A stretch of 64,000 bases of DNA from Planctomycetota bacterium (GTDB taxonomy: Bacteria > Planctomycetota > UBA1135 > UBA2386). Each line of letters opens with the position of its first letter. Within the stretch, counting starts at the first letter, position 1. A model generated the notes under the pieces. It made no database searches. It had not been told where the DNA came from and saw only the letters and a list, made by a program, of their open reading frames with translations. The position numbers and the translations under genes are program-made. The stretch covers positions 62,001 to 126,000 of the forward strand of contig JALORC010000001.1 in assembly GCA_025459175.1 (NCBI GenBank). The letters run 5' to 3'. This document shows, piece after piece, positions 19,078 through 54,092 of this stretch.

Positions 19078-19191
19078 GGCGACACGGTAGCCGGAGTGGG
19101 TCGGGACGGAGAACGAGCAACCGACGCAGCGGTCCGGCGCCCGCTGGTGCCAGCCACGTAATCCCGCAGCCGGCGGCGGCTCTTGCCCGCC

Positions 19192-21387: not shown

Positions 21388-23079
21388 TTACCGATTGATC
21401 TCCAGCAACAGTCGGTTGCTGATCGTGCCGGTGCCGGCGGCCGACAGGGTCGCCCCCTGCAGGTAGAGCTCGAGCTCCAGGCCCAGGGTCGGCGGAATGG
21501 TCAGCGGCACGTCGAACGTCCCGGCCGCCCCCACCGAGCCCGAGCTGGCGCGCCGGACCGAGGCGTCACCCGGCATGCGCCAGCTGCCCAGCGGCGCCGC
21601 GAAGCGGTGGTAGGCAATCGGGTCCTGGTTGCTCGGGATCCACAGGAACAGCACGGCCAGGTCGCTGGGGTTGCCACTGAGTGCGACGTTGATCGGGGTC
21701 GGCACACCGTTCGTGTGCAGGTTGCCGAAGGCGTCGAGCTGCGGGCAAGAGAGGCGCACCGCAGCGCCGCCACCATCGGTGCGCTCGTCGGCGCCGATCT
21801 CGACGCTCGGCGCAGCGTCGCCGACGAAGTCGAGGATGCGCGAGTCACCGTCGAGGTCCATGCCGCAGTCGGCGCGCGCGCTCATCGCGCCGACGTTGAC
21901 CGTGACCGTCGGCAGCACGAACGAGTTCGTGCCCGCGTCCAGCAGCGGGGAAGAGGGCTGCAAGTGGAGATCCGACGGCGCCGCGACGAACTGCGGCGAG
22001 TTGCCGGCGCCGACGACGGACAGGATCCAGTTGGTGGCCTGAGTCAGCACCCCGGTGCCGCCGTTGCTGAGATCCGTGACCGCGCTGGCACCTGCGGCGT
22101 ACGACATGGGATTCCAGAGGATGTTGTTCGCCAGCGTGATATTGCCCGCTCCGGCGATCAACACTCCGAACACCGGCTGGTTCAACGAGAATGGCCGGCC
22201 GTAGCCCTGGGTATTGTTGACGACGTGTGCACTGCAGTTGAGCAGCGCGATGCCCCATTCCGCGTCGTGGACGACGTTGGAGACGATGCGGGGCAGCGTG
22301 GTCGTCGGGGCCCCGAACACCTGGATGCCGACCTCGTTGTCGTGGATGTCGTTGGCGCGGAACAGATTCGTCGAGGTGCCGTCGAGGTTCACCGCATTGA
22401 TACCCGTGCCGAAGCCGGACTCGTTGGCGTTGAACGCGATCTCGCACTCTTCGACGACGTGCTGCGAGTTGCGCCCGACGCGCGTCCAGATGGTGATACC
22501 GGTCGAGCGGTTCTGGACCAGGCGGCATCGATGCACGTGGACCTGGTCCGGCGTGTTCACCGGCAGGCCCGAGATCGAGGTGTCGATCTCGATCCCGGCT
22601 ATGCCGTCGCGCAAGGTGAGTCCGCGGAGGATCGTGCCCGGGGTGACGCCGCAGGCGCCGTTCTGGGCTCCGGCCCGATTGACCCGGAGCACCGGCTCGA
22701 ACTGGGTACCGCTGATGACGACCCCGGGTTCGAAGGCCTCGAGTTTGACACCGCGGGCCGGCAACTCGATCGGATAGGTCTCACTGACCCCATAGTTGCC
22801 AGCGCGAAGGTTGATCGTGATCGGATTGCCGCTCGGGGTCAGACTCAGGGCGGTCGCCACCGCGTGGGTCACCGTGCGCCACGGGGCCGTGATCGTGCCG
22901 GGGTTGGCGTTGTTACCGGTCGGGGCAACGTAGTAGATGTTGCCACAGCTCCACGGCGCGGGGTTGGTAGGGATCGGCGCAATCTGCTGCTGGAAGGTCT
23001 GTGCGACCAGGGCACCGACGAACGGGCTGCAGGCCATGGTGACGAGCAGATGGAGAGCGGACTTTCGGTTGCGTGTCAT
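21388..23079 (-). CDS. Exported right-handed beta-helix (DUF1565-like) protein (563 aa)
   Basis: After a signal peptide (MTRNRKSALHLLVTMACSPF and on, cut near LVAQ) the sequence enters a DUF1565-type start: YYVAPTGNNANPGTITAPW then TVTHAVATAL, the usual opening of surface beta-helix proteins. Repeated short coils follow (RGLTLRDGIAGIEI, ANDIHDNEVGIQVFG, VHDAEWGIALLNCS) as in pectate-lyase-like helices to about residue 380, ending in the SPLLDAGTNSF and VEIGADE pattern common in this family. The C-terminal 130 residues form the shared module, closing ISNRLLLEINR. The fold often binds or cleaves polysaccharide, but no catalytic set is visible. The start at 23079 is supported by a GAGGAA Shine-Dalgarno five bases upstream, one of the clearest in the window. 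Confidence 0.8.
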   Translation of the reverse strand: MTRNRKSALHLLVTMACSPFVGALVAQTFQQQIAPIPTNPAPWSCGNIYYVAPTGNNANPGTITAPWRTVTHAVATALSLTPSGNPITINLRAGNYGVSETYPIELPARGVKLEAFEPGVVISGTQFEPVLRVNRAGAQNGACGVTPGTILRGLTLRDGIAGIEIDTSISGLPVNTPDQVHVHRCRLVQNRSTGITIWTRVGRNSQHVVEECEIAFNANESGFGTGINAVNLDGTSTNLFRANDIHDNEVGIQVFGAPTTTLPRIVSNVVHDAEWGIALLNCSAHVVNNTQGYGRPFSLNQPVFGVLIAGAGNITLANNILWNPMSYAAGASAVTDLSNGGTGVLTQATNWILSVVGAGNSPQFVAAPSDLHLQPSSPLLDAGTNSFVLPTVTVNVGAMSARADCGMDLDGDSRILDFVGDAAPSVEIGADERTDGGGAAVRLSCPQLDAFGNLHTNGVPTPINVALSGNPSDLAVLFLWIPSNQDPIAYHRFAAPLGSWRMPGDASVRRASSGSVGAAGTFDVPLTIPPTLGLELELYLQGATLSAAGTGTISNRLLLEINR

Positions 23080-23551
23080 TGTCGTTCCTCGTTGAGAATT
23101 GGGACTTCGCAATGAGGACGCGACACGCGGCGTCGAGAGGACGACGAAGAATGGAATCCTCGAGCCGTCCGGGTGCTGCTCCGGCGATCGGTGATCACAC
23201 CGACGTCCCACACGTCATCGGCAGCCCCTCGTCGCACTCGATCTCGCCTGCCAAGGGAAGCAACCACTCAGGTTGCTCGGTGGCGACAGTCCGATGACGC
23301 TTACGCCGCGCGGCGTGATACGGAGCCGGCTCGCCTCGTGCGCCGGCACGACCTCGGTGTGATGGAGGCCGAGGATGCCACACCGCAAGGTGTGGACCGG
23401 TGCGACGCCGGCCGCGTGCGTGCATCGCGAGAACGCCGTGGCGAGTTCGCGGCGTGACGCGTCATGGTATTGTCCACCGCGGCGCGCGAGCTGCCTGCGC
23501 GGTGGACGGTCCGAACCATCCGTCCCGGCCGACCGGGACGACCGACTGTCA
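23080..23551. other. 472-base intergenic region without a convincing gene
   Basis: This stretch separates two reverse-strand genes. Next to the 23079 start it holds a GAGGAA ribosome binding site (23085-23090) and a less GC-rich stretch that probably contains the promoter. Next to the 23552 stop it holds the hairpin listed separately. Several short open frames occur on both strands, but they overlap each other and have arginine-rich, low-complexity translations, so I do not call a gene. Confidence 0.6.
23521..23540 (-). terminator. Hairpin downstream of the sigma/kinase operon
   Basis: CGTCCCGG and CCGGGACG form a perfect eight-pair stem with a four-base loop, 11 bases after the stop of the last gene of the ECF-kinase operon. 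No T-run follows on the reverse strand, so intrinsic termination would rest on the stem alone. Confidence 0.5.
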
Positions 23552-24971: not shown

Positions 24972-27434
24972 TCAGCGTCCGGAGGACGGTTTCGAGGATG
25001 TCCACTCGTCGATCTTGGCCGCGGGGGCCTTCTCGCGAATGAGTGAAAGGAACAGCGCCCTTGCTGCGCTTGCCTCTTCTTCGCCGAGCCGGTCGGGCAT
25101 CAAGGTGATGGCGAGCAGCGCGGAGTACCAGTTGGAAGGTTCGCTCGCGGCGAGGTTGGCGGCATCGGCAAACGGCGCGCGGCCCTCGCTGAGGCAGGTC
25201 GCCAGGGCGACCTTCACGGACTCGCCGTGGCCGGTCTGCTGCCACTTCCCGAGTGCAGCGTCGGCGGCGGCGCGAGCCCCCACCGGGTCGGCGGCGATCA
25301 GGTGGCCCAACGCACGCTGGAAGTCGATCTCGCCGCGCAGCCGATCACGCACCCGATCCGGGAACGGGCCACTCGACAGCAGGTCTTCCGCCTGTCTGAG
25401 CGCGGACCGGTCTCCGACACCACCGCGCACCAAATGCACCCAGAACAGCGTCTCGTACGACGACCTCGAGTGCGGGCGCAGGGCTATGGCCCTGGTGAGG
25501 TACTCGACGGCTCGGTCGAGATCGCCGAGTCGCCGCAGCGCGACCCCGGCATTCTCCAGCAGATTGGCCGAGAACGGCGCCAGCTCTAGCCCGGTGCGGA
25601 TCGCGTCCAGGGCTTCCGAATGACGTTGCTGCATCAGCAAGGCGAGGCCCTCGAGATGAGCCGTCATCGCGGTCGTCCTGCTGCGGCGCTCCTCCATGCG
25701 CAGCACGGCCTCGTGCACCCGCCGCGCTCCGGCCCTGCGTTCGTCGACCGGCCGCTTGTCGAGCGCGTCGAGATCGATCAGCAGCCGCTGCTCGAGCGCA
25801 GGTTCGCAATCGTCCAACCGCGGGTCGAACAACCGGTCGCGCGCAACCTTGAAGTTTCGACGCCGCAGTTCGTGGAAGGCGAGCAGATAGACCTCGTCGG
25901 CCGCGGCCGGTTCGGGAGCACCATCGAGGTTCGGCGTCGACAATGACGACGCGAGTGCGTCGAGGTGGGCCCGAACCAGGAAGTCGGCGACCGATCCTGG
26001 AACCTGTCGCGCGATCGACTCGAGGTCGGCGATCGCCGCGCGGTGATCGCCCTGGTCCCACAGGAAGGCGGCACGGGTGGCCAGGATCGGCAGTGCGTGC
26101 AGCGCGTTGGCGGCAGCGCGGTCGAGCAGTTCGCGCTCGCGCGCGCGAGCCGGATCGTCGGGCATCGCGCGATCGTCGGGATTCCACAGCGTCAGCAACG
26201 GCTGCAGCCTGGACTCGGCCTCCGCATAGGCTGACTGCATCCTGTCGCGGCGGTTGCGTTGGTACTCGCCGTGGCCCCAGTAACCGACCAGGCCGAGAAC
26301 GAAAGCCAGCGAGACGGCGAGCGCGGCCAACGCCGCCGGCGATCGGCGCACCCTGCGCGCGAGACGGGCGATCGCCCCCGGATAGCGGGCCGCGACAGGC
26401 TCGTGGGCGAGGAACGCCTCGAGGTCTTCGCGCAGGTGGCACATCGACCGGTAGCGCCGGTCCAGGTCGCGATTGAGCCCCACGTCGAGGATCGCGAGCA
26501 GGTCCTTCGGCAGGTCGGGACGCAGGCTGGCCGGCAGGGCGGGATCGCGGACCGGGATCGCCGCGAGCACTTCGGCCGGGGTGCCTTCGTAAGGCGCGTT
26601 GCCGGTCAAAGCCCGGTAGAGCGATGCGGTCAGACCATAGATGTCGACGCTCGGGCCCAGGGGTCGATCGGCCCGCAGCTGCTCCGGCGCCATGTAAGCC
26701 GGCGTGCCGACGCCGCGCGCCCCGTCGGCAAGGGTCGCCTGCGCGCCCAGTGTGGCGATGCCGAAGTCGATCAGCACGGGCCCCCGGCTCGACAACATGA
26801 TGTTCGAGGGTTTGACGTCGCGATGCACGATGCCCTTCTCGTGCGCCAGTTCGAGCGCCCGCGAGAGCTGCGCGGCGTGTGCGACCGCCTCACGCACGGG
26901 CATGCGCCCCGCCTTGCCCAGCGCGGCGCGGTCCTCGAGCGCGTGCTGCATGGAGATACCCTCGAGGTATTCCATGACGATGTAGGCCTGCCCCTCGTCG
27001 GTGCGCTTGCGATCGTGGATCGTCGCGATCGCCGGGTGGTTCAGCTGCGCCAGCACCTCGCCCTCGCGCTGGAAGCGGCGCTCGTTCTCGTCGCGATTGG
27101 ACATCTCGGTCCGCAGGACCTTCACGGCAACGGTGCGCCCGAGCTCGAGATCATCCGCTTTGTAGACGGCGCCCATGGCGCCATAGCCGAGACACTCGGA
27201 GAGCACGTAGCGGCCGCCGAACACACTCCCGGTCAGCGAGCCAGGTGCTCTGGCCGCCGGACGGAACGCCGTGGCCTTGACGAGCGAGACCGCGTCCGCC
27301 ACCGCAGAACGAAGCTCCGGACTGCCCGCGCAAAGGGCGTCGAGGTCCACGGCTTCGCCACGCTCGAGCTGGTGCAGGGCATCCGCCACCAACTCTTCGA
27401 GACGATCCTGGTCCTGGGGCGAGTGCTCCGTCAC
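24972..27434 (-). CDS. Ser/Thr protein kinase with membrane helix and helical, TPR-like sensor region (820 aa)
   Basis: The kinase domain (about residues 75-343) is complete: glycine loop GYGAMGAVY, catalytic lysine K105 in VAVKVL, HRDVKPSN with D206, DFG with D223, and APE as APEQL. One membrane helix follows (about 366-387). The remaining 430 residues are helical, with TPR-like pairs such as AAFLWDQGDHRAAIADLESI and NLLENAGVALRRLGDLDRAV. This is a common planctomycete layout with the kinase in the cytoplasm and the repeats outside. The GTG start at 27434 overlaps the sigma factor stop (GTGA), so the two are translationally coupled, and the exported protein follows after seven bases. Such kinases are thought to phosphorylate or otherwise control the linked ECF sigma factor; here that is inferred from context only. 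Confidence 0.92.
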   Translation of the reverse strand: MTEHSPQDQDRLEELVADALHQLERGEAVDLDALCAGSPELRSAVADAVSLVKATAFRPAARAPGSLTGSVFGGRYVLSECLGYGAMGAVYKADDLELGRTVAVKVLRTEMSNRDENERRFQREGEVLAQLNHPAIATIHDRKRTDEGQAYIVMEYLEGISMQHALEDRAALGKAGRMPVREAVAHAAQLSRALELAHEKGIVHRDVKPSNIMLSSRGPVLIDFGIATLGAQATLADGARGVGTPAYMAPEQLRADRPLGPSVDIYGLTASLYRALTGNAPYEGTPAEVLAAIPVRDPALPASLRPDLPKDLLAILDVGLNRDLDRRYRSMCHLREDLEAFLAHEPVAARYPGAIARLARRVRRSPAALAALAVSLAFVLGLVGYWGHGEYQRNRRDRMQSAYAEAESRLQPLLTLWNPDDRAMPDDPARARERELLDRAAANALHALPILATRAAFLWDQGDHRAAIADLESIARQVPGSVADFLVRAHLDALASSLSTPNLDGAPEPAAADEVYLLAFHELRRRNFKVARDRLFDPRLDDCEPALEQRLLIDLDALDKRPVDERRAGARRVHEAVLRMEERRSRTTAMTAHLEGLALLMQQRHSEALDAIRTGLELAPFSANLLENAGVALRRLGDLDRAVEYLTRAIALRPHSRSSYETLFWVHLVRGGVGDRSALRQAEDLLSSGPFPDRVRDRLRGEIDFQRALGHLIAADPVGARAAADAALGKWQQTGHGESVKVALATCLSEGRAPFADAANLAASEPSNWYSALLAITLMPDRLGEEEASAARALFLSLIREKAPAAKIDEWTSSKPSSGR

Positions 27435-28066
27435 AGGACCTCGTCGTTGTCGGCGGTCACCCCACTCTGCTGCAGACGCACGAGCAAACGGGCGTGCAGC
27501 CGGTGGAACGCCTTGCGGGCAGCGTCCGCCGACGGGAAGCCGAGCTCTTCGGCCAGGGTCTCGAACGGAGCTTCGCCGTCCAGCCGGCGCACCAGCAGCA
27601 CTCGGTCCCGCCCTTCGAAGCCATCCAAGGTGGCGAAGTAGATCCGGATCTGCTCTTCGGCACAGAGCTTCCTGACCGGGTGGTCGCTGGCCTGCGTGTG
27701 ATCCAGCGCGCCGTCCTCGTGCTTGGTGCGCCGGCGATCCCTGCGCACGGCATGATGGAAGCGCACCAGGTCGAGCAGACGGCTGCGGACCGCCGACGCG
27801 ATGAAGTTGACGAACTCTCCCTCCGTGGCCCCGAGAAAGCCCTCCAGACTCGACAGCACTCGCCGGAAGACATCCTGGACCACGTCGCCGGTGCTGAACA
27901 GAGCCACTAGGTTGCCGGCATGGGCGCCGAGTTCGGCCCGGAGCTGTCGATGGGCGATGCGCTCGACGGTCGGGTAGTGCAGGGAACACAACGAGTCCAA
28001 CGCCATTCGGTCGCCCCGGCGGGCAGCGGCGAGCAGGATCGGGAAGTCGGAGGGAGCCGCGTTCAT
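27431..28066 (-). CDS. ECF RNA polymerase sigma factor (211 aa)
   Basis: Region 2 is recognisable in STGDVVQDVFRRVLSSLEGF and the following FVNFIASAVRSRLLDLVRF, where the DVVQDVF core binds polymerase. Region 4 is a helix-turn-helix at FETLAEELGFPSADAARKAF. The spacing and length are those of the ECF class, and the region 2 sequence resembles the groups that planctomycetes pair with Ser/Thr kinases. The ATG at 28066 (MNAAPSDFP) was preferred over one 69 bases upstream because the extra residues are unlike the family. The stop overlaps the kinase start. The promoter should lie in the 126 bases up to the phosphatase stop; I see no clear autoregulated motif there. No anti-sigma factor is encoded beside it. 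Confidence 0.85.
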   Translation of the reverse strand: MNAAPSDFPILLAAARRGDRMALDSLCSLHYPTVERIAHRQLRAELGAHAGNLVALFSTGDVVQDVFRRVLSSLEGFLGATEGEFVNFIASAVRSRLLDLVRFHHAVRRDRRRTKHEDGALDHTQASDHPVRKLCAEEQIRIYFATLDGFEGRDRVLLVRRLDGEAPFETLAEELGFPSADAARKAFHRLHARLLVRLQQSGVTADNDEVL

Positions 28067-31451: not shown

Positions 31452-34124
31452 TCAGTAGCCCAGACGCAGCTTCAGGCCGTTGGTCAGGGCGAAGCCCGGC
31501 AGGAACGTGTCATTGCCGTTCAGGTCGAACACACCGGCCTGGCAGTAGACCGGCATGCCGGCCAGCGCGGCGGTGGCCGGGATCGGCAGCGGCACGGCCG
31601 AGGTCCCGAAGAAGTTGGTGACGACGGCCCAGGTCGCACCGATGTTCGCGACCAGGATGCTGTTGGGCAGCAGCGGGGCCGGATCGAGCGCAGCCGCGAT
31701 CACCGCGATCGAGAAGCCGCGCGCGTTGCGCAGCCCGAGCCCGAACGTCGCGTTGCCGATCACCGGCACGGCCGGGATGCCGACCGGGTAGAGGTTGGGC
31801 ACCAGCGCGCTGGTGCCGGCCGAACCGGCGCCGTACGAGTCGGCCCGCGCCTGCGGCACACCGGGCAGCACGACCACGGTGCCCGCCGCGGCGTCGCAGT
31901 AGACGAGGTCGGCGAAGCCGTCACCACCGATGTCGGCGAGGCCGATGCCCGTCGCCAGCGTGCCGGCCCGGACGATGCCGCCGGTGCCCGCGCCCTGCCG
32001 CGACCAGTTGCCGAGCACGGTGATCGAGCCGCCGACGAAGTTCACCAGCGCGACGTCGCGACGCACGGTGTCCGGATCGGCGTCCGCGTCGAGGTCGCCG
32101 GCCACCATCTCGGTCGGCCCACGATCGACGACGAACAGCGAGCGCCTGAACACGCCGGCGTCGTTGCGCAGCACGTCGACCCCGCCCGGGCCGAAGCCGA
32201 ACGCATCGCGCGAGCTGGAGACCAGCAGGTCGATGTCACCATCGCCCTCGACGTCGGTCGCCAACACGCGGTTCGAGTTGGCCGACAGCGCGATCGGACT
32301 CGCGCCGAACGCGGTGAAGCCCCCGCTGCCGTTGCCCTGGAAGAAGTGCACGCGGCCGCTGCCGGCGTCGCCCTCGGCGACGGCGATGTCGGCGAAGGTG
32401 TCGCCGTTCAGGTCCCCGACCGACGCGTCGCGGCAGGCCACCGTGAAGCTGGCGGCGAGGGTCACGGGCGCGAAGCCGGTGCCGGCCCCGTTGTTCAGCA
32501 GCGCCGCGGCCTTGCCCGGCAGCAGGCCGGCCGAACCGGCATCGGTGACGACGAGATCGTCGATCGCGTCGGCGTCCAGCTTGCCGGCGGCGAGGCCGCT
32601 CGGCGAGACCGCGCCGGCGATCGAGTGCGTGTGCAGCAGGCTGAACGAGCCGGCCCCGTTGTTGGCGAACACGTAGACCTTGTGCTCGACCAGCGACGGC
32701 GGAACGCTGACGGTCAGCACGGCCAGATCGCGGCCGGCCGCACCGTTGAACTCACCGGCGACGACCGCGACCGGAGCGCCGGCGGCGACGCCGAACGGCA
32801 CGTTCGTGACCGCGAAGGTGCCGCCGCTGTTGAGACCGAGCGCCAGCGCCGGGGTCGGGCCCTGGCTCAGCGCCGCGAAGTCGCTGTCGGTGTCGGCGTC
32901 GAGGTTGCTGACGACCAGATCGATCGGCGCGTAGCCCGACGGCAGATTGGTGACGATGCCGGGGCCGAAGCCCTTCGCCAGCGGCTTGGCCAGCGGATCG
33001 CTCGCCGCCGCCGTGCCCGCCAACGTGTGCGGGCCCGCGACCGCGAGGCTCGAGTAGTGGTTGCCGCTGTAGGTGTTGCCGCCGGCATCGTCCGCGGCGT
33101 CGTTGTCGTCACCGGCGACGGTGACCGAGAACGAGTTGTCGCTGACGATCAGGCCCGAGATGTTCTGGGTGTAGAGGCCGAACTCGGCGGTGTGCACGCG
33201 GTTGCGCCGGATGCTGCCGCTGATGGTGCTGGCGGTGCTGCCGAAGAAGTAGAGGCCGACCTGGCAGTTGCCGAAGTTGCAGTCCTCGACCACGATCGGC
33301 GAGCCCGGCTCGAAGAACAGGATGCCGGTCGCGACGGTGCCGGGCGGGTCGTACCAGCTGTCCGTGATCGTGCAGCGCCGGATGTCACACGTGGCGCCGC
33401 GGCTGATCTGCATGGCGTTCTGGGCGGCGAGGCCCAGGAACGCGTGGTTGAAGCCGTCGATGCGGCACTCGTCCAACACCACGTGCGCGTTGAAGTTGGC
33501 GACCACACCGCCCTTGCCGTACTCGTGCACCAGGCAGTTGCGCATCGTCACCGTGGTCAGGTCGGCGGGGGCGTCGCCGCGGATGTTGACGGCGAGCGGG
33601 CCCTGGATGCCGTTGATCGGGTTGGCACGCGCGTTCGTGCACTCGACGTTGTCGAGCACGGCGTCGGCGCCCGTCCCGACCCACAGCGAATAGCCGCGAC
33701 CGTTCGGCGGCAGGTTGAAGCCGTTGTCGAGCGTGAGGTCGCGCACGCGGACCGTGGCGCTGCCCTGGATGGCCAACGCGCAGCGGTGCGCTTCCGCCGT
33801 CGGCGTCGCCAGCAGGCCCGCCGGCAGCGTGAGGTTCAGGCTCGTGTGCGCGCGGATCACCGTCGCGCCCTGGCCGGCGCCGACCAGGGTCAGCGTCTTC
33901 GTGCCGAGGACGACATTGCCCTGTTCGTCACCGTACGTGGCGGCGATCAGGCGAATCACGTCGCCGGCGGCGGCGACGGCGGCGGCGTGATTGATGGTCT
34001 GGAACGGCGATGCCGAGGTGCCGGGATTGGCGTTGCTGCCGGTGGGGCTGACCCACCATTGCGTCTGCGCCGTGGCGCTGGCCATGGCGAACAGGGAGGT
34101 GACGACGAAACAGAGGCGCTGCAT
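31452..34124 (-). CDS. Exported beta-helix plus seven-repeat FG-GAP/VCBS propeller protein (890 aa)
   Basis: A signal peptide (MQRLCFVVTSLFAMASATAQ) leads into a DUF1565-type beta-helix, opening WWVSPTGSNANPGTSASPF, to about residue 395. From about 400 to 750 come seven FG-GAP/VCBS-type repeats with calcium-loop cores: LDADTDSDF, FNGAAGRDL, LDADAIDDL, LNGDTFADI, VEGDGDIDL, LDADADPD and IGGDGFADL. Seven repeats fit a closed seven-bladed propeller as in integrin alpha chains. The shared C-terminal module opens at about 768 with YGAGSAG and ends TNGLKLRLGY. The AAGGAG ribosome binding site six bases ahead of 34124 fixes the start. It is the second gene of a tandem pair, 40 bases after its paralog, so both are likely on one transcript. 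The ligand is unknown. Confidence 0.85.
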   Translation of the reverse strand: MQRLCFVVTSLFAMASATAQTQWWVSPTGSNANPGTSASPFQTINHAAAVAAAGDVIRLIAATYGDEQGNVVLGTKTLTLVGAGQGATVIRAHTSLNLTLPAGLLATPTAEAHRCALAIQGSATVRVRDLTLDNGFNLPPNGRGYSLWVGTGADAVLDNVECTNARANPINGIQGPLAVNIRGDAPADLTTVTMRNCLVHEYGKGGVVANFNAHVVLDECRIDGFNHAFLGLAAQNAMQISRGATCDIRRCTITDSWYDPPGTVATGILFFEPGSPIVVEDCNFGNCQVGLYFFGSTASTISGSIRRNRVHTAEFGLYTQNISGLIVSDNSFSVTVAGDDNDAADDAGGNTYSGNHYSSLAVAGPHTLAGTAAASDPLAKPLAKGFGPGIVTNLPSGYAPIDLVVSNLDADTDSDFAALSQGPTPALALGLNSGGTFAVTNVPFGVAAGAPVAVVAGEFNGAAGRDLAVLTVSVPPSLVEHKVYVFANNGAGSFSLLHTHSIAGAVSPSGLAAGKLDADAIDDLVVTDAGSAGLLPGKAAALLNNGAGTGFAPVTLAASFTVACRDASVGDLNGDTFADIAVAEGDAGSGRVHFFQGNGSGGFTAFGASPIALSANSNRVLATDVEGDGDIDLLVSSSRDAFGFGPGGVDVLRNDAGVFRRSLFVVDRGPTEMVAGDLDADADPDTVRRDVALVNFVGGSITVLGNWSRQGAGTGGIVRAGTLATGIGLADIGGDGFADLVYCDAAAGTVVVLPGVPQARADSYGAGSAGTSALVPNLYPVGIPAVPVIGNATFGLGLRNARGFSIAVIAAALDPAPLLPNSILVANIGATWAVVTNFFGTSAVPLPIPATAALAGMPVYCQAGVFDLNGNDTFLPGFALTNGLKLRLGY

Positions 34125-34164
34125 GAAAATCTCCTTCTTGGCGAACTTGGCGAGGGACGGACTC

Positions 34165-36816
34165 TCAGTCCCCGACGCGCAGGCACAGCCCGGCGGTGAG
34201 ACTGATTTCGGGTAGGAACGACGACGCGGCCAGGTCGTAGACGCCGGCCTGCAGGCAGAACGAGAAGCCGCGCGCGTCGGGCAGCGCGGGCAATGGCAGG
34301 CCGAAGGCGCCACGGCCGTTGCTGTCGGTGAGCGTGCCGAGGATGAACAGCGGCACATCCAGCAGATAGCCACACGGCACGGCAACCGGCCCCGGCCCGA
34401 GCGCCACCGCGCACGCCGCGATCGACAGCGGGAAGGCGTCGACGACGACGATCTCGAAACCCGGATTCGGTTGCGTCGGCAGCCCCGGCAGGCCGCGCGT
34501 CTCGAGCCGCGGCTCGCGGCCCGCGGTGCCGGGACAACCGGGTCCGAACGTGGTGACCTGCGCCGTCGGCGAGCCGTGCAGCAGCGCGATACCACCGCGG
34601 TCCGGCTCGGCCACGATCAGGTCGTGGTACGGATCGCCGTCGAAGTCACCGGCGACCAGATCGACGGGTCCGGCGACGAGACTCATCGCGCCACCGCCGG
34701 CGAAGCCGGTCGCCGGCTCCCAGGCGCCGAACAGGGTGACCCGACCGGCCGAAGGATGCGCGACGAGCAGTTCGGGGCGCACCTGGCCCGACACGGCATC
34801 GCCATCGAGATCGGCCACACACAGCCGCGCCGGACCGCCCTCGAGCGGCTGGGCCGGCGCCGAGAACAACAGGCTCGGCCGGTTCTCGAACACCTTCAGG
34901 GCGCCGCGCTGGAACGGCAGCGCGCCGCCGGCGGCGGCGACCAGGAAGTCGCGGTCGCCATCGGCATCGAAGTCCGCGATCAGCACCTGGGCCGGGTTGG
35001 TCGGCACCGCGAACGGACTGCCGAGACTGGCCACGAACGAGCCGAACCCGTCGCCGCGCAGCCAGTGCAAGCGCCCGCTGCCGGGGCTGCCTTCGAGCAC
35101 CGCGAGATCGTTGTTGCCGTCGTCGTCGACGTCGCCGGCGGCGACCGACACGACCGCCTCGGTGAACGTCACCGGCAGCGCCGCGGTAGCCCACGCACCA
35201 CCCTTGCCGACGTTGCGGAACACCTCCGCGCGCCCCGCCACGAACGGCCACGCGCCCTGGTCCACGACGGTGATGTCGTCCAGGAAGTCGCTGTCCAGCC
35301 GCGCCGCCGCCACACCGGCCGGAGCGATGTGGTTCGGCAGCGACTGCTGGTGCAGCAGGCTCATGCCGCCCGCCCCGTCGTTGCCGAACACCCAGAATGC
35401 AGCACCGGCGGCCGCGGGCGGCAGCGGCGCCGTCACGGCGACCAGATCGAGGCCCGGCATCGCGTCGAACTCGCCGGTGGCGAGCGCGACCGGGCGCAGC
35501 CCCGCACCACCGAACGACACCAAGCCGATGAGGTAGCCGGTCGGCCGCCACCGCCCCACCGTGAGGCCGGCCCCATTGCCGACCAGATCGAGCGTCGCGA
35601 AGTCGGAGCGACCATCGGCATCGAAGTCGGCGCTGACGACCGCCACCGGCGCGCCGCCGCACACGATGCGCTCGAGGCCGCCGAGTTCGGACAGGCTGCT
35701 GACCGGCGCGAGGTCGACGTTGCCACCACCCGGGATCGCGACGCTGGTCGCGGTCGGCAGCACGCCGTAGCGATTCTGCGCCCATACGTTGAGCCCGGCG
35801 CTGTCGTCCCAGTATGGCATCGGATCGAACCGGCTGACCGGGAACAGCGCGTTGCCGGTGACCAGCAACCCGGTCACACCGCGCACGGCGACGGTGGTGT
35901 CGACGGCGGCGATGCGATTGTTGCGGATGCTGCCCGGTACGATCTGCGGCGGCGTGTGCCGCACGTCGATGCCGATCGCGGCGCGGGCGATGCGGTTGCC
36001 CTCGACGAGGCAGCCCGAGCCGTGCTGCTCGAGCCGCACGGCGGTGCCACCGGCACCACCGCAGTCGGTGATGCGCGACAGCCGGATCGAGCCTTGCGCG
36101 ACGTTCTGCAGCCACACGCCGACCTGGTCGCCGCTGCCGAGATACGGGGTCGGCCCCGCGATGTCGCACTCCTGCACGTCGATCTCGGCGCGCAGCGTGG
36201 CCCGGATCGCGGCGGAACCGAAGTTCACCAGCGCGCCATCGCGAACCACCAGCGAGGTCGGGTTGGCCGGCACGTCGCCGCGGACGGCGATGGCGTTCGC
36301 CGGCGTCGCACCGGGTACCGCCGGACGACAGTTGCGAACGACGACGTGGTCACAGACGACATCGACGCCACCGCGCAGATAGATGCCGGCGAGCTCACCG
36401 GCCGCCGGGGCCACGCTCTGTGCATCGATCGCCAGCGAGCGCACGTGGATGCGCGCGGTGCCACTGAGCAGCAGCCCGACGCGATGCGGCACGGCGACCG
36501 CGGCTCCGGCCCCGACCGGAACCAGCGGGATCGTCGACGAGCTGTGCGGCCGCAAGATCGTCGTCGCGGCGCCATCACCCTGCAGCACCAGGTCCTTGGT
36601 GCCGAGCTGCACGATGCCCTGTTCGTTGCCGTAGACACCGGCGTGCAGGAACAGCGTGCTGCCCGGCGCCGCGACCGCCGCCGCGTGGTTGATGGTCCGG
36701 AACGGACTCGCGATCGTGCCGGCGCCGGTATCGCTACCGCCCGGGGCAATGTGAATCTGGGCCCCCGCGCATGCAGCGATGCTGAGCGTCCAAACTGCCG
36801 TGGCGAGCGGATTCAT
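34165..36816 (-). CDS. Exported beta-helix plus seven-repeat FG-GAP/VCBS propeller protein, paralog of the 31452 gene (883 aa)
   Basis: The architecture equals that of the gene downstream: signal peptide (MNPLATAVWTLSIAACAGAQ), a DUF1565-type opening (IHIAPGGSDTGAGTIASPF), and a beta-helix with coils such as VRDGALVNFGSAAIRA. Seven propeller repeats start near residue 400: FDADGRSDF, FDAMPGLDL, LDSDFLDDI, VDDDGNNDL, FDADGDRDF, a longer LDGDAVSGQ copy, and FDGDPYHDL. The C-terminal module opens FGPGCPG near 757 and ends TAGLCLRVGD. The two proteins share domain order and many aligned motifs but little long identity, so the duplication is old. It is the first gene of the pair. The 267 bases upstream, before the next reverse-strand stop, should hold the promoter; I see no distinct motif. 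Confidence 0.85.
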   Translation of the reverse strand: MNPLATAVWTLSIAACAGAQIHIAPGGSDTGAGTIASPFRTINHAAAVAAPGSTLFLHAGVYGNEQGIVQLGTKDLVLQGDGAATTILRPHSSSTIPLVPVGAGAAVAVPHRVGLLLSGTARIHVRSLAIDAQSVAPAAGELAGIYLRGGVDVVCDHVVVRNCRPAVPGATPANAIAVRGDVPANPTSLVVRDGALVNFGSAAIRATLRAEIDVQECDIAGPTPYLGSGDQVGVWLQNVAQGSIRLSRITDCGGAGGTAVRLEQHGSGCLVEGNRIARAAIGIDVRHTPPQIVPGSIRNNRIAAVDTTVAVRGVTGLLVTGNALFPVSRFDPMPYWDDSAGLNVWAQNRYGVLPTATSVAIPGGGNVDLAPVSSLSELGGLERIVCGGAPVAVVSADFDADGRSDFATLDLVGNGAGLTVGRWRPTGYLIGLVSFGGAGLRPVALATGEFDAMPGLDLVAVTAPLPPAAAGAAFWVFGNDGAGGMSLLHQQSLPNHIAPAGVAAARLDSDFLDDITVVDQGAWPFVAGRAEVFRNVGKGGAWATAALPVTFTEAVVSVAAGDVDDDGNNDLAVLEGSPGSGRLHWLRGDGFGSFVASLGSPFAVPTNPAQVLIADFDADGDRDFLVAAAGGALPFQRGALKVFENRPSLLFSAPAQPLEGGPARLCVADLDGDAVSGQVRPELLVAHPSAGRVTLFGAWEPATGFAGGGAMSLVAGPVDLVAGDFDGDPYHDLIVAEPDRGGIALLHGSPTAQVTTFGPGCPGTAGREPRLETRGLPGLPTQPNPGFEIVVVDAFPLSIAACAVALGPGPVAVPCGYLLDVPLFILGTLTDSNGRGAFGLPLPALPDARGFSFCLQAGVYDLAASSFLPEISLTAGLCLRVGD

Positions 36817-37083
36817 GGCGATGCAGTCCTTCGGTGTCTTCTTCGATGCACGGCCCACACGGTGTCGCGAGGGTGTTCCCGTAGCGGCGGGCCAGGCGAG
36901 GCCGCACCGCTTCTCAACGCGCGCTGTGATAGCCGTAGCGAGCGCGATGTCCAGCTTCTGCTGACTGCGGTCGACAATTCCCCACGCCATGGCCGAGGAC
37001 GGGCTGACCAGGACGGAGTGGCGGCGCGCATCGGCTCGACGGTCGAGCGGATGCCGCGCGAACGGAACCTGCGGCGCGAGCGA

Positions 37084-37605
37084 TCAGCGCTTGCCGGCGC
37101 GCAGCAGCGCACCGACCGCGACCAGCACGAACGACGCGAGCCACAGGAAGTAGCCGGCGCGGTAGATCTCGAACGGGTTCTGGTCAGCGAGGTAGATCCA
37201 GCTCGCGTCGGCGACCGCGGCCGCCAGCAACACGAGCCCGATCGCGAGCGGCAATCGCCGCGCGGCCACGAGCAGCAGCCCCGCCAACATCAGCACGTTG
37301 GTGAGGCAGGTCGCACCGAGCAGATACTGCTTCCAGCGGTCGTCCTCGGGCAACGGCGAATCGGTCGCGGTCAGCAGATGCCACGCGAACTTGCAGGCGC
37401 TCCAGCCGGGCAACCAGTCCGGCCCCGACATCGCGCCGAGCATGCCCTCCGCCTGCGCGCCGAGCCGTTGGCCCCAGCCGGGCAGCGCGCCGAACAGCTC
37501 TTGCCCCTTGTAGGCAGGCACCAGCCACGACACCGCGAACAGCACCGCGCCGACCAGCAGCAGCCGACCGCCGAGGTCGCCGCTGCCCTTCTTGCTCTTG
37601 CCCAT
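37084..37605 (-). CDS. Small four-helix membrane protein (173 aa)
   Basis: After a lysine-rich start (MGKSKKGSGD) come four hydrophobic helices at about residues 14-30, 98-114, 117-138 and 147-168. The first two are joined by a large extracytoplasmic loop rich in glycine and tryptophan (LPGWGQRLGA, GPDWLPGWSACKF). The tail is basic. I recognise no family. The positive-inside pattern predicts both ends in the cytoplasm. It lies 141 bases after the LplT-Aas gene on the same strand, behind a hairpin, so it is probably transcribed separately. Confidence 0.62.
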   Translation of the reverse strand: MGKSKKGSGDLGGRLLLVGAVLFAVSWLVPAYKGQELFGALPGWGQRLGAQAEGMLGAMSGPDWLPGWSACKFAWHLLTATDSPLPEDDRWKQYLLGATCLTNVLMLAGLLLVAARRLPLAIGLVLLAAAVADASWIYLADQNPFEIYRAGYFLWLASFVLVAVGALLRAGKR

Positions 37606-37706
37606 GGGTTGATTGCCGCTCGCTGCACGCGAAGCGGCGCCGGCATGCTGCCGTTCGTGCTCGCCGTCGTCCAGCGTGCGTCGGAACGGCCGTCAGATAC
37701 GCCGAC

Positions 37707-37737
37707 GCCGCTGCGGCTCCACCATGGAGCGAGCGGC
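37707..37737 (-). terminator. Two-tier hairpin after the LplT-Aas gene
   Basis: An outer stem GCCGCT/AGCGGC and an inner stem GCTCCA/TGGAGC are separated by a small internal loop, with a three-base apical loop. It begins nine bases after the stop of the large reverse-strand gene. There is no T-run. Confidence 0.45.
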
Positions 37738-37746
37738 AAGAGCCCC

Positions 37747-40700
37747 TCACCCCTCGCCCACCGCCTGCAGACACAGCTCCTTCACCTTGCGCAGATCCAG
37801 CTTGCCGGTCCCCAGCACCGGCAACGCGGCCACCGGCACGAACTGATCGACGCGCGGCACGAACAGCGGCGGCAGCCCGCGCCCGCCCATCTTCTTCACC
37901 ACCTCGACCAGCGTCGGCGGATCGAGCACCGTCAACACCATCAGCCGCTCGCCCTTCTTCGCGTCGGGCACACCACACACCGCGAACGCGCGCTCCGGCC
38001 GCCCGCTGCACGCCTGCAGGTGTTCCTCGACCACGCCGTGCGGCACCATCTCACCGCCGATCTTGCTGAACCGCGACAGGCGATCGGTCAGGAACAAGAA
38101 CCCGTCGTCGTCGAGCCGGCCGATGTCGCCGGTGATGTAGCAGCCCTCGTGCAGCGCCGCCGTGGTCAGGTCCGGGCGACCGAGATAGCCCTGCATCACG
38201 TTGGCACCGCGCACCAGCACCAGCCCGCTCTCGCCGATCGGCTTGTCGACCTTGGTCTCCGGATCGACGATGCGCACCACGACACCCGGCAGCGGCCGGC
38301 CGACCGAACCGCGCCGCACGCCGGCCTGATAGAAGCCCGCCGCGCGGTAACCCGGCGCGCTGATCGCGACCGCCGGCGACGTCTCGGTCGCGCCGTAGCC
38401 CTGGATCGGCGTGATGCCGAAGCGATCGGCGAACGCGGCGGCGAGCTCTTCGGTCAGCTTCTCGGCGCCGGTCAGCACGATGCGCAGCGACCCGAACTGG
38501 CCCGGCTCGCAGCGCCGCTGGTAGAGCTGCAGGAACGTCGGCGTCGCCAACAGGATCGTCGCGCGCTGCTTCGCGACCAGTTCGCCGATCGCCGCGGCAT
38601 CGAGCGGGTTGGGGTGGAACACGATGCCCGCGCCCTGCTGGATCGCGTACCACAGCGCCATGTTGCCGAACGAGTGGAACAGCGGCAGCACGCCGACCAG
38701 CCGATCGCGGTGATCGAGCGGGATCAGCTGCGCGATGCCGTCGCAGTTGGACTGCACGTTGCCGTGCGACAGCATCACGCCCTTCGGCTCGCCGGTGCTG
38801 CCGCTGCTGAACAGGATCGTCGCGATGTCGCCCCGCTGCACGCGCTTGCTCGCACCACACGCGCGCTCGAGGGCGCCGATCGGCAGCAGCAGACCGCGCA
38901 ACAGTGCGCCGAGCCGTTCGAACCGACCGATGCCGGCCAGCACGTCCTCGAGGCACAGCAGCGTGACGCCGGCCGGGATCGTCACCTTGATGCGCTCGAG
39001 GAACGCGCGCGAGCTGACGATCGTGCGCAGTCCCGCCTGGGCGACCGCCGAGTCGAACGCGTTCTGGCCGACGGTGAAGTTCAGCGACACCGCGGTGCGC
39101 CCCGACAGGCTCGCCGCGATCGCCGCCAACGCTCCGCCGATCGACGGCGGCAACATCAGCCCCACGTTCTGCTGGCCGGCCCACGGCTGCCGCAGCCGCC
39201 GCGCCAGCACGATCGCCGCCGCCAGCACCGCACCGCGCGAGAGACGCTTGCCCTGGCTGTCGAGCAGGCACGGCTGCAGCGGCCGGCGCCGCACCGCGCG
39301 CACGAAGCCCACGTGCAGCGGCCGCAGTTCCTCGGCGCGCAGCCGGAACGCCGCTTCGCCGAGGTGATCGACCGCGCGCCGCACTTCGACCGGCGGCGTC
39401 GCCGACGGCATCGGCACGCCGAACGACACCGTGACCGGGCACGGCACCTTGGTCGGCCACAGCTGCACGCGACCCTGGCGCGCGCTGCCGAACGAGCCGT
39501 AGACGCGGTCGAGGTGCACCGGCACCACCGGATTGCTGCGCCCCTTCAGGATCCGCTGCATGCCGCGCCGGAACGGCAGCGTGCTGCCCATGCGGCTGAT
39601 CTCGCCCTCGGCGAACAGGCACACCAGTTCGCCCTGGTCGAGCGCCTGGCCGGCCTCGCGCAGCGCCTTCAGCAGCACGCGCGGGCCGCCGCTCTGCGCG
39701 ATCGGGATCGCGCGCAGCGCCGCCAGGAACGGCTTCAGGTACGGGCGTTCGTACCAGTACTGCTCGACGACGAACCGGATCGGCCGATCGGTCGCCGCGA
39801 TCACGAACAGCGCGTCGAGGAACGACACGTGGTTGGGCACCAGCAGCGCGCCGCCCTGCTGCGGCACGTGGCTCTGGCCCACCAACCGCAGCCGATACAG
39901 CGTGCGCGTCAGCAGCACCACGCACAGCCGCAGCAGCGCCTCCGGCAGCAGCCAGATCGCCCAGACCGTCGCCAGCAGCGTGATCGCCGCGGCGATCAAC
40001 AGGATCTGGCCGCAATCACACCCGAGCCGCGCCAACAGCAGGCAACCGAGGTTGCCGGCCAAGATGCCGGCGAACGACACGCAGTTGACCAGCGCGATGA
40101 TGGCGCCGCGGCGCGCCGGCGGCGCCTTCCACTGCACCAGCGCGTTCAACGGCACCACGACCAGACCGCTGGCGACACCGAGCAGCGTCATCCAGCCGAA
40201 CGTGCCGAACCAGCCCGGCATGAACAGGCCGAGCATCGCGGTGCCGAACGCGAGGCCGAGCGCCCCGAGCGGGATCAGGCCGACCTCGACGACGCCGCGC
40301 GACAACCGGCCGGCGAGCCACGCGCCGAAGCCGACGCCGACCGCGAACAGCGCGTACGGCACGCCCGCGTACTGGTCCGAGAAGCCCAGCACCTGCTTGC
40401 CGTAGACCAGCACGTCCTGGCCGAGCAGCGAGGCGAGGCCCCAGAACGCCACCGAACCCAGCGTCGCCAGCCACAGCGTGCGATCGCCTCGCAGCGCGCG
40501 CCACGCACCGCCGAGCACCTGGCCGAACGGTTCGGCCGCAGCTCCGGACGGCGCGGTGCGCGGCACCGCCAGCGCGCCGACGAAGCCGACCGCGGCGAGC
40601 ACCGTCAGCACCACGCCGACCCACCAGATGCCGACGCCGTGGCCCTGGATCTTCTCGAGCAGCACGCCGCCGGCGGCGGTGCCGAGCACGATGGCGACGA

Positions 40701-41166
40701 AGCTGGCGCCCTCGAGCCGCCCGTTCGCGGCCGCCAGGCGGTCGTGCGGCAGCAGTTCGGGCAGGATGCCGTACTTGCCCGGCGCGAACAGCGCGCTCTG
40801 CAGCCCCATGCCGGCGAGCACCGCGAGTGGCACCCAGCCGACCGGTGCCACCGCCAGCGCCCAGGTGCCGAGCGCCATCAGCAGCACCTCGAGCGCCTTG
40901 GTCCAGACGATCAGGTCGCGTTTGCCGACCCGGTCGCCGAGCGCCATCGCCGGCAGCGAGCCGAGCATCAGCGGCAGCGTGAAGACGACGAACGCCAGCG
41001 TGGTCTCGTACTGGGACGCGGCCTCGTCGCCCTTGTCCACCGTCGCCAATGCCAACAGCAGCACCACCATCTTGAAGGCGTTGTCGTTGAAGGCGCCGAG
41101 GAACTGCGCCAGCAGCAGGCCGCCGAGCGGGTGACGCGGCGCGGTGGACGAGGAGGTCATGGTCAT
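37747..41166 (-). CDS. aas: Three-domain LplT-Aas: lysophospholipid flippase, 2-acyl-GPE acyltransferase and acyl-ACP ligase (1139 aa)
   Basis: The product combines three activities that recycle lysophospholipids. Residues 1-410 are a twelve-helix MFS transporter of the LplT type (FLGAFNDNAFKM, KYGILPELLP). Residues 430-620 are a PlsC-type acyltransferase with the catalytic HX4D at H446-D451 (NHVSFLD) and the FAEGEISR substrate loop near 520. Residues 635-1139 are an adenylate-forming ligase with the P-loop FSSGSTGEPKG at 786-796, then GYGATETSP and TGDIGRLDDDG. In E. coli these are two genes, lplT and aas; the fused form is known in other bacteria. The start may be ATG 41166 or 41160. A LysR-type gene diverges 88 bases away with a T-N11-A box between, so lipid or fatty-acid level probably controls it. 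Confidence 0.9.
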   Translation of the reverse strand: MTMTSSSTAPRHPLGGLLLAQFLGAFNDNAFKMVVLLLALATVDKGDEAASQYETTLAFVVFTLPLMLGSLPAMALGDRVGKRDLIVWTKALEVLLMALGTWALAVAPVGWVPLAVLAGMGLQSALFAPGKYGILPELLPHDRLAAANGRLEGASFVAIVLGTAAGGVLLEKIQGHGVGIWWVGVVLTVLAAVGFVGALAVPRTAPSGAAAEPFGQVLGGAWRALRGDRTLWLATLGSVAFWGLASLLGQDVLVYGKQVLGFSDQYAGVPYALFAVGVGFGAWLAGRLSRGVVEVGLIPLGALGLAFGTAMLGLFMPGWFGTFGWMTLLGVASGLVVVPLNALVQWKAPPARRGAIIALVNCVSFAGILAGNLGCLLLARLGCDCGQILLIAAAITLLATVWAIWLLPEALLRLCVVLLTRTLYRLRLVGQSHVPQQGGALLVPNHVSFLDALFVIAATDRPIRFVVEQYWYERPYLKPFLAALRAIPIAQSGGPRVLLKALREAGQALDQGELVCLFAEGEISRMGSTLPFRRGMQRILKGRSNPVVPVHLDRVYGSFGSARQGRVQLWPTKVPCPVTVSFGVPMPSATPPVEVRRAVDHLGEAAFRLRAEELRPLHVGFVRAVRRRPLQPCLLDSQGKRLSRGAVLAAAIVLARRLRQPWAGQQNVGLMLPPSIGGALAAIAASLSGRTAVSLNFTVGQNAFDSAVAQAGLRTIVSSRAFLERIKVTIPAGVTLLCLEDVLAGIGRFERLGALLRGLLLPIGALERACGASKRVQRGDIATILFSSGSTGEPKGVMLSHGNVQSNCDGIAQLIPLDHRDRLVGVLPLFHSFGNMALWYAIQQGAGIVFHPNPLDAAAIGELVAKQRATILLATPTFLQLYQRRCEPGQFGSLRIVLTGAEKLTEELAAAFADRFGITPIQGYGATETSPAVAISAPGYRAAGFYQAGVRRGSVGRPLPGVVVRIVDPETKVDKPIGESGLVLVRGANVMQGYLGRPDLTTAALHEGCYITGDIGRLDDDGFLFLTDRLSRFSKIGGEMVPHGVVEEHLQACSGRPERAFAVCGVPDAKKGERLMVLTVLDPPTLVEVVKKMGGRGLPPLFVPRVDQFVPVAALPVLGTGKLDLRKVKELCLQAVGEG

Positions 41167-41227
41167 GGATCGGGCTCCGGGACAGCCGAACTATCGCCCG
41201 GACCACCGTGCAGCCGCAGGAACTCGT

Positions 41228-41246
41228 GCTTGTGGCACTGATAAGC
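41228..41246. promoter_or_regulatory. Candidate LysR-type operator (T-N11-A)
   Basis: GCTTGT and ATAAGC form an imperfect inverted repeat with one mismatch around a seven-base centre, giving the T-N11-A pattern (T41231, A41243) typical of LysR regulators. It lies eight bases before the lysR start and 61 bases before the divergent aas start, so binding would repress lysR and could activate aas. Confidence 0.45.
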
Positions 41247-42178: not shown

Positions 42179-42188
42179 CCTGCCCCCG

Positions 42189-42224
42189 GGTCGCGGACTA
42201 TCGCCCTGCTGTCCACCCGCGACC
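42189..42224 (+). terminator. Long-loop inverted repeat after lysR
   Basis: GGTCGCGG and CCGCGACC are perfect complements separated by 20 bases, 10 bases after the lysR stop. The long loop weakens the terminator case, and it could instead be part of the leader of the exported-protein gene that starts at 42260. Confidence 0.3.
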
Positions 42225-42259
42225 GGACTCGGACTCGGCACCCCACCCAGGGATCCACG

Positions 42260-43981
42260 ATGCGACACAGCCTGCCCTTGCTCTCCCTCGCCCTGTTGCT
42301 GTCCGGGCTGCCGGCCCAGGTGGTCGGCATCGACAGCCTGGCCCCGGTCGGGCTGCAGAATTCGATCCCGTTCGGCCCGACCAACTACGGCTGGACCACG
42401 GTGCACTTCTACCCCGCGTCGCGCCTGCACGCGTCGGGCATCTGCGCCGGCTCCACGCTGGCCGACTTCGCGATCGCGATCGGCGACGGCATCCCGTCCG
42501 GCACCAGCGGGGTGTTCCAGACCTCGCAGGCGCTGGTGCAGATCGGGCATGTCGCGGTGCAACCGCCGGTCGCCGGCAACTGGGCCAACAACCTGGCCCA
42601 GCCGGTCACCGTGCACGCGCTGAACCAGGGACCGTTCGCGCTGCCATGGACCAGCAACCAATGGGCCTCGCTGCCGGGCGTGCAGGCGGCCGGGTTCGTC
42701 TGGGACGGCGTGCGCGACGTCGGCATCCGGATCTCGACCGCGGGCAGCCCGACCGGCACCTTCCATGCGCGCACCTCCGGCCACCAGCAGTTCGCTACGC
42801 AGGCGTTCACGCCGCCGGGCCAGTTCCCGCTCACCGGCGGGCTCGGCGCGCTGCAGGTGCGCTTGACGTTCGCGCCGAGCGCCACGTGCGCTGCCGTCGA
42901 CCGCTTCGGCAGCGGCTGCATCGACACCAATGCCGCCTACTACAAGATCTTCCTGTCGCCGGGCACGTTCGACCTCGGCGGCGCGCCGGGCCAGGAACGT
43001 CGCCTGATCCACACCGCGACGCCGACCGGCTACACGGTGAGCAGGAGCCTCGGCGGCTGGCAGCCGGTCGCCGGCACCCCGTGGCAGGCGAACGGCGGCG
43101 GGCCGATCGGCAACGAGTCGATCAGCGCCGCGATGCCGCTGCCGTTCGCGTTCCCGTTCGCGAACACCAGCACTTCGGTCGTGCACGCATCGGCGAACGG
43201 TTACCTGATCCTCGGCCCGACCACCGCGGCCACGGAACTCTTCTCCGGCAACGGCGACGGTCTCGTCGCCGGGCCGGCCAAGATGGCGCCGCTGTGGAGC
43301 AACCTGTTCCCCAGCTTCAACACCCTCGGCTCGAGCATCTACTTCGAGACCGCCGCCGACAATCAGTCCGTCTGCATCACCTGGCTCGATTGCGCGTTCA
43401 CGTTCCTCGGCACGCCCGTGCCGCAGTCGAGCGTCACCTTCCAGATCGTGCTGCGCAGCAACGGCGACTTCGAATACCGATACGGCACCATCAACCTGGC
43501 CGGGGCCAACTCCGGCCCGATCCTCGTCGGCTGGTCGCCAGGTGACCAGCCCAGCTCGAACCGCCGCCTGCCGGTGCCGTTCGACATGTCGCAGCCGCAG
43601 GCGCAGCTCTCGATCGACCGGCTGAGCGTGCTGCCGCTCACCCTCGAAGCCACCGTTCCGGATCTCGGCGCGACGATGCTCTTCACCTGCCGGAACGTGC
43701 CGGCATTCGCGCCATTCCTGATCCTGATGATGTCGACCGGTGCGACCCCGGGCGTGGATCTCGGCTTCGCCGGTGCTCCTTCGTGCTCCATCTATCTGAG
43801 CGGCTTCCTCGGCTCGGCGACGTTGCTCATCACCAACGGCCTCGCGACGTTCCCGCTGACGATCCCGACCAGTGCCAGCCTGATCGGCACCACGTTCGCG
43901 TCGCAGGCGGTGGCGTTCTCGCCCCACAATGCAATGGGCCTTCACACCTCGAACGGCCTGCGGGCGCAGGTCGGACGGTAG
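42260..43981 (+). CDS. Exported protein with shared C-terminal module, first of a tandem pair (573 aa)
   Basis: A signal peptide (MRHSLPLLSLALLLSGLPAQ) is followed by three parts. Residues 20-215 form a beta domain with VHFYPASRLHASG, VWDGVRDVGIRIST and a tail VRLTFAPSATC. Residues 215-460 open with FGSGCID and YYKIFLSPGTFDLGGAPGQE and include FPFANTSTSVVHASANGYL and FEYRYGTINLAG; this resembles the nidogen-like layout of some extracellular proteins, a weak likeness. From 460 on comes the C-terminal module, ending LHTSNGLRAQVGR. No enzyme motif is seen. Its sister gene begins 42 bases later and aligns along the full length. They may be two forms of one surface component. Confidence 0.75.
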   Translation: MRHSLPLLSLALLLSGLPAQVVGIDSLAPVGLQNSIPFGPTNYGWTTVHFYPASRLHASGICAGSTLADFAIAIGDGIPSGTSGVFQTSQALVQIGHVAVQPPVAGNWANNLAQPVTVHALNQGPFALPWTSNQWASLPGVQAAGFVWDGVRDVGIRISTAGSPTGTFHARTSGHQQFATQAFTPPGQFPLTGGLGALQVRLTFAPSATCAAVDRFGSGCIDTNAAYYKIFLSPGTFDLGGAPGQERRLIHTATPTGYTVSRSLGGWQPVAGTPWQANGGGPIGNESISAAMPLPFAFPFANTSTSVVHASANGYLILGPTTAATELFSGNGDGLVAGPAKMAPLWSNLFPSFNTLGSSIYFETAADNQSVCITWLDCAFTFLGTPVPQSSVTFQIVLRSNGDFEYRYGTINLAGANSGPILVGWSPGDQPSSNRRLPVPFDMSQPQAQLSIDRLSVLPLTLEATVPDLGATMLFTCRNVPAFAPFLILMMSTGATPGVDLGFAGAPSCSIYLSGFLGSATLLITNGLATFPLTIPTSASLIGTTFASQAVAFSPHNAMGLHTSNGLRAQVGR

Positions 43982-53910: not shown

Positions 53911-54092
53911 GGGGCCGGCAGCCTACGGCGGCGGCGTTGCGGGCACGAGCCAGCGGCAACGTCGACGGCACGGGCCCGCGGCGACGCTTCATCCCGAAGC
54001 CGTCGAATCCACACATCGGGGGACCAGAAGGGCGCCCACGCGCCGCGGTGTCGCGGTGCGACCCACGGCAGTTCTCCCGACCGGAGCAATCC

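Follow-up and report, generated by a model that had tools for sequence, protein, structure and literature searches.

A tandem pair of planctomycete proteins combining a beta-helix, a predicted seven-bladed propeller and an uncatalogued C-terminal module

We analyzed a window of 64,000 nucleotides from a Planctomycetota bacterium (assembly GCA_025459175.1, contig JALORC010000001.1), within which the stretch 31452-36816 comprises two minus-strand coding sequences and coincides exactly with both. Gene A, the upstream member of the pair, spans 34165..36816 (883 aa, ATG at 36816); gene B spans 31452..34124 (890 aa, ATG at 34124, stop ending at 31452), starts 40 bases past the stop of A, and has AAGGAG as its ribosome-binding sequence. 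The two proteins align end to end with 33% identity (BLASTP E = 1e-115), which bears out the paired full-length paralogs proposed in an earlier, sequence-only reading of this DNA. Both also follow the domain order proposed there, i.e., signal peptide, beta-helix, FG-GAP/VCBS repeats, and C-terminal module (hereafter CTD). In A, these parts correspond to ~residues 1-19 (36760..36816), ~20-375 (35692..36759), ~378-748 (34573..35685), and 751-883 (34168..34566); in B, to ~residues 1-19 (34068..34124), ~20-385 (32970..34067), ~388-755 (31860..32963), and 758-890 (31455..31853), all on the minus strand. Signal peptide cleavage was placed by eye before Q20 in both proteins, and the structure models described below have a helix over residues 3-13 in A and 2-15 in B. 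Beta-helix boundaries were taken from Pfam matches and model strands. Overall, the tandem paralogy and the domain order of A and B are supported. On the opposite strand, a 2256-aa open frame (34471-41241, +) runs antisense to gene A and to the genes upstream of it; its G + C content by codon position (0.91/0.52/0.73) suggests a G + C artefact and no gene.

Next, we examined the propeller part, for which exactly seven repeats in aligned order had been claimed. A repeat profile placed the loop starts at residues 397, 449, 506, 562, 615, 669, and 724 in A and at 407, 458, 515, 571, 624, 677, and 731 in B, with a loop-to-loop spacing of 51-57 residues, and each of the 14 proteins whose propeller could be read, A and B included, had seven repeats. 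In Pfam, FG-GAP_3 matched the two proteins at 77.8 and 67.3 bits (cut-off 26.9), and FG-GAP barely exceeded its own cut-off (22.2 and 22.5 bits vs 22.1). AlphaFold2 models built from a 15-row alignment (mean pLDDT 83.2 and pTM 0.80 for A; 85.4 and 0.82 for B) displayed strand orders compatible with seven sheets in both proteins, so that the blade number predicted by the sequence-only reading also holds at the level of modeled structure. The last sheet of the B model has only three strands ahead of the CTD. In propellers, a strand that precedes blade 1 usually completes blade 7, and the models include such a strand at residues 378-385 in A and 390-393 in B; a sequence test for this closing strand gave mixed results, being weak in B and its orthologs. 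Closure of the predicted ring is a possible reading of the strand order and the fold matches, as distinct from coordinate contacts.

A profile search with the propeller part retrieved CRTAC1 and integrin alpha-V, alpha-4, and alpha-IIb, and integrin alpha chains made up nearly all top Foldseek matches for B and most of those for A (E 2e-11 and 5e-10, respectively). Foldseek also matched BBSome subunits as well as ADAM22-LGI1 entries, and it was an ADAM22-LGI1 entry that headed the matches of A. For propeller-scale alignments of A, target-normalized TM-scores were 0.55-0.62 with integrins and 0.67 with a KICSTOR-GATOR1 chain, while whole-chain scores were low (query-normalized ~0.3) because the remaining domains align badly. 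Taken together, the models and profile matches support a predicted integrin-like, seven-bladed propeller in A and B.

The calcium loops expected with such a propeller were recovered in part. A DxDxDG-like loop between strands A and B occurs in all blades, at least in degenerate form, and complete loops, as read from the amino acid sequence, number five of seven in A and four of seven in B, so that the loops stood as claimed for these blades and were not intact in the rest. In blade 5, each of the four ligand positions is D, N, or E in every one of the 14 proteins; for the other blades, this holds in 3-10 of the 14. Animal integrins have three or four calcium sites, and the bacterial seven-bladed integrin-type propellers of Chouhan et al. 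2011 have one in every repeat (PMC3192720); by predicted loop count, A and B would sit between the two. They resemble these bacterial propellers in their seven FG-GAP repeats with DxDxD loops and differ from them by the N-terminal beta-helix, the predicted C-terminal beta-sandwich, and the four or five complete loops. The VCBS superfamily likewise has a DxDxDG-like AB-loop motif and integrin-like blades in common with A and B (Pereira and Lupas 2021, PMC8023676). Among solved chains, the best profile match was cartilage acidic protein 1 (PDB 9etn, E = 1.5e-6), aligned over part of the propeller (profile positions 563-759), with the beta-helix unmatched. The propeller is of an already known bacterial kind, and the fusion is a variation on it; none of the papers searched names both DUF1565 and FG-GAP.

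Since enzymes too can contain VCBS-type propellers and beta-helices, A and B might be polysaccharide-active, i.e., lyase- or dehydratase-like proteins in which either the beta-helix or the propeller acts and the other domain binds the polysaccharide. The right-handed beta-helix itself is recognized in both proteins: DUF1565 matched above the Pfam cut-off in A (7e-7) and B (9e-6), and Beta_helix did so in B (62.8 bits, 4e-17) and fell below the cut-off in A (19.3 bits vs 25.9, 9.5e-4). Its N-terminal cap resembles the pectate lyases PelN and Pel9A and a rhamnogalacturonan lyase chain, and the fold search with A also brought up a VCBS-type aldos-2-ulose dehydratase (4a7k, 4a7z). However, while right-handed beta-helices of the Pel9A/PelN type have both this cap and helical coils in common with A and B, the enzyme-family matches span only the first 40-75 residues, those to lyases only the first 45-75. 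For PelN, the matches covered the first 65-75 residues, with 25.9 and 18 bits, i.e., at most 26 of the 740 bits of the curated cut-off for a full-length match. In addition, the invariant or nearly invariant beta-helix positions of 15 homologs were mostly Gly, the others conserved being T43, A47, L78, T88, R128, D133, N308, N330, N355, and D376 (B numbering), and no lyase site or cluster was evident among them, although R128 and D133 are each nearly or fully invariant. We thus set aside an enzyme identity, the similarity being limited to the cap, and regard catalysis by A or B as unlikely. A further DUF1565/Beta_helix frame lies ~8 kb off in the window (21391-23211, -), with no FG-GAP repeats and no CTD match.

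The same three-part order had been proposed as something to look for elsewhere, and we found it in 10 or more genomes from the order as well as in other Planctomycetota families. Homologs within the family came from G014, G019, G021 (three), G024 (two), G027, and G029, and others within the order from G038, G046, G055, and G058, those of G029, G038, and G055 being cut by contig ends. In other families of the phylum, G125 has the order over the whole length, and G119, G270, and G282 have it with weaker beta-helix matches. No full-length copy was found in the seven genomes searched of the same genus, several of them incomplete; the distribution is therefore patchy, and the function appears dispensable. 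In a maximum-likelihood tree, an A group (window, G024, and G029) was separated with full support from a B group with the same three members. This split precedes genera g1 and g18, and the pair is therefore older than those genera. G021 displayed a tandem duplication of its own.

Gene neighborhoods bear on whether A and B act jointly. In a narrower form of the recognition role discussed below, the two would form a two-part complex, with the recurrent neighbor as obligate partner. Consistent with this, A and B adjoin each other in both G000 and G024, and a second beta-helix/FG-GAP/CTD gene, tandem or divergent, was adjacent at seven of the nine loci with context. At L061 (7617-13078), L063 (8346-13912), L065 (4634-10604), and L067 (1404-6292), this neighbor is divergently transcribed, head to head, and belongs to another subfamily, and L062 (4591-13205) combines a divergent partner with a tandem copy at one locus. 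All three divergent neighbors scanned had a beta-helix, one of them with Beta_helix under and DUF1565 over the cut-off. Conversely, L064 and L066 have no adjacent second gene of the A/B type, and tandem duplication would by itself account for the neighboring genes of the window, L058, and L062; adjacency in general may reflect tandem duplication alone. We therefore consider an obligate complex doubtful. No convincing conserved neighbors beyond the paralog pair were identified among the loci compared. Similar proteins (33% over 382 aa) are encoded a few kb from the homologous genes in the window (24975-27989, -) and in L063 (3346-5799, +), a likeness that probably reflects a common large family and is not specific.

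The uncatalogued and unusual part of A and B is the CTD, rather than the propeller. This module of ~130 aa was modeled with strands only in both proteins, and is therefore likely a beta-sandwich. Pfam and NCBIfam matched nothing in the final 130 residues of A and B and yielded no convincing match for 24 members, and a CTD profile had no sequence match in the PDB. Copies in the window (31455-31853 and 34168-34566) and in loci L068-L117 are located at the C-terminal end, or close to it, of proteins that look exported: the CTD was followed by at most one residue in 79 of 107 matches (some loci overlap, so that not all are independent), and most of the 22 CTD open frames examined begin with a signal-peptide-like hydrophobic stretch. 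Domains found by Pfam in these proteins include FG-GAP, kelch or lactonase propellers, di-haem peroxidase, LamG/PKD, LVIVD repeats, and metallophosphatase, and for many of them Pfam recognizes no domain in the remainder. Among 65 near-complete distinct copies, a cysteine pair was complete in 53, absent in nine, and reduced to one cysteine in three, two without the first column and one with a shifted second column (Fisher p = 1.7e-8, uncorrected for relatedness). This joint retention or loss of the two cysteines points to a disulfide and, with it, to an exported location. The pair is present in A and replaced at both positions in B, as in the whole B ortholog group (window 31455-31853, L058:10021-12690, and L059:2-2524).

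At E ≤ 1e-8, 56 genomes out of a Planctomycetota sample of 294 had a CTD match, with about as many copies in the HKST-UBA81 genome as in the present one. Outside this phylum, where sampling comprised Actinomycetota and three clostridial genomes, it was found neither in 199 Actinomycetota genomes (the phylum of Humibacillus) nor in the three clostridial ones, and a plasmid search with one CTD as query gave no match. Within the present genome, at least 65 copies were detected at E ≤ 1e-10 and at least 145 at E ≤ 1e-3, alongside at least 150 FG-GAP_3 matches. Such numbers, together with the patchy distribution of A and B homologs, would be expected of surface proteins present in many copies, none with a conserved role of its own, that arose as propeller, beta-helix, and tail modules were shuffled repeatedly. 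The constant repeat number and spacing in 14 of 14 proteins and the persistence of distinct A and B ortholog groups across genera argue against this scenario, which we hold to be quite improbable.

Instead, we favor a reading of A and B as non-enzymatic proteins that are secreted and act in recognition at the cell surface or in the extracellular matrix (estimated probability ~0.58), because the beta-helix has no evident lyase site and the enzyme matches are limited to its N-terminal cap. Specifically, a Sec-type signal peptide, as read from the N-termini, would export both proteins; the beta-helix would serve as a stiff stalk or offer an extended surface that faces carbohydrates; and the propeller, with four or five calcium loops as braces, would present a ligand-binding face according to the predicted structure. 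The C-terminal beta-sandwich would be a general add-on of many exported proteins, most likely for envelope retention, sorting, or assembly. Since A and B are old paralogs that have stayed side by side in a second genus of the family, they probably work as a pair or bind two related ligands. An adhesin or scaffold function, as suggested by the sequence-only reading, is plausible and agrees with the signal peptides, with the absence of any obvious catalytic cluster, and with the CTD. With a blade number that does not vary and paralog pairs of old origin, the fusion represents a well-defined candidate surface-receptor family.

To our knowledge, how Planctomycetota sort or hold their surface proteins is poorly understood, and the occurrence of the CTD on many otherwise unrelated exported proteins makes this question directly testable. 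The position of the CTD at the extreme C-terminus of such proteins is reminiscent of the type IX secretion system (T9SS) C-terminal domain and of PEP-CTERM, yet neither system could be linked to A and B. For T9SS export, none of the NCBIfam matches of 24 CTDs was a sorting model, and the search for SprA, silent in this genome and equally in every control genome (i.e., with no positive control), shows little. For PEP-CTERM, the genome does encode two exosortases, but the CTD terminates in LRxG(D/Y/N) and lacks a hydrophobic helix, and thus differs from PEP-CTERM by the absence of the hydrophobic/basic tail and of the PEP motif, so that we rejected A and B as exosortase substrates. Among titles and abstracts of the literature, no described Planctomycetota C-terminal sorting domain was recognizable as the CTD. 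We tentatively raise the possibility that the CTD serves as an address tag for a Planctomycetota sorting or surface-retention system that is as yet undescribed, with the beta-helix/propeller pair as one cargo family. The tag would then be, equally tentatively, a disulfide-stabilized beta-sandwich carried by tens to >100 exported proteins per genome. In any case, the uncatalogued CTD is the part of A and B most worth following. Weaker CTD ends were also detected elsewhere in the window, in the plus-strand frames 19162-21321 (29 bits), 42179-43978 (25 bits), and 53640-56258 (39 bits), the last of which contains a metallophosphatase domain besides its CTD match.
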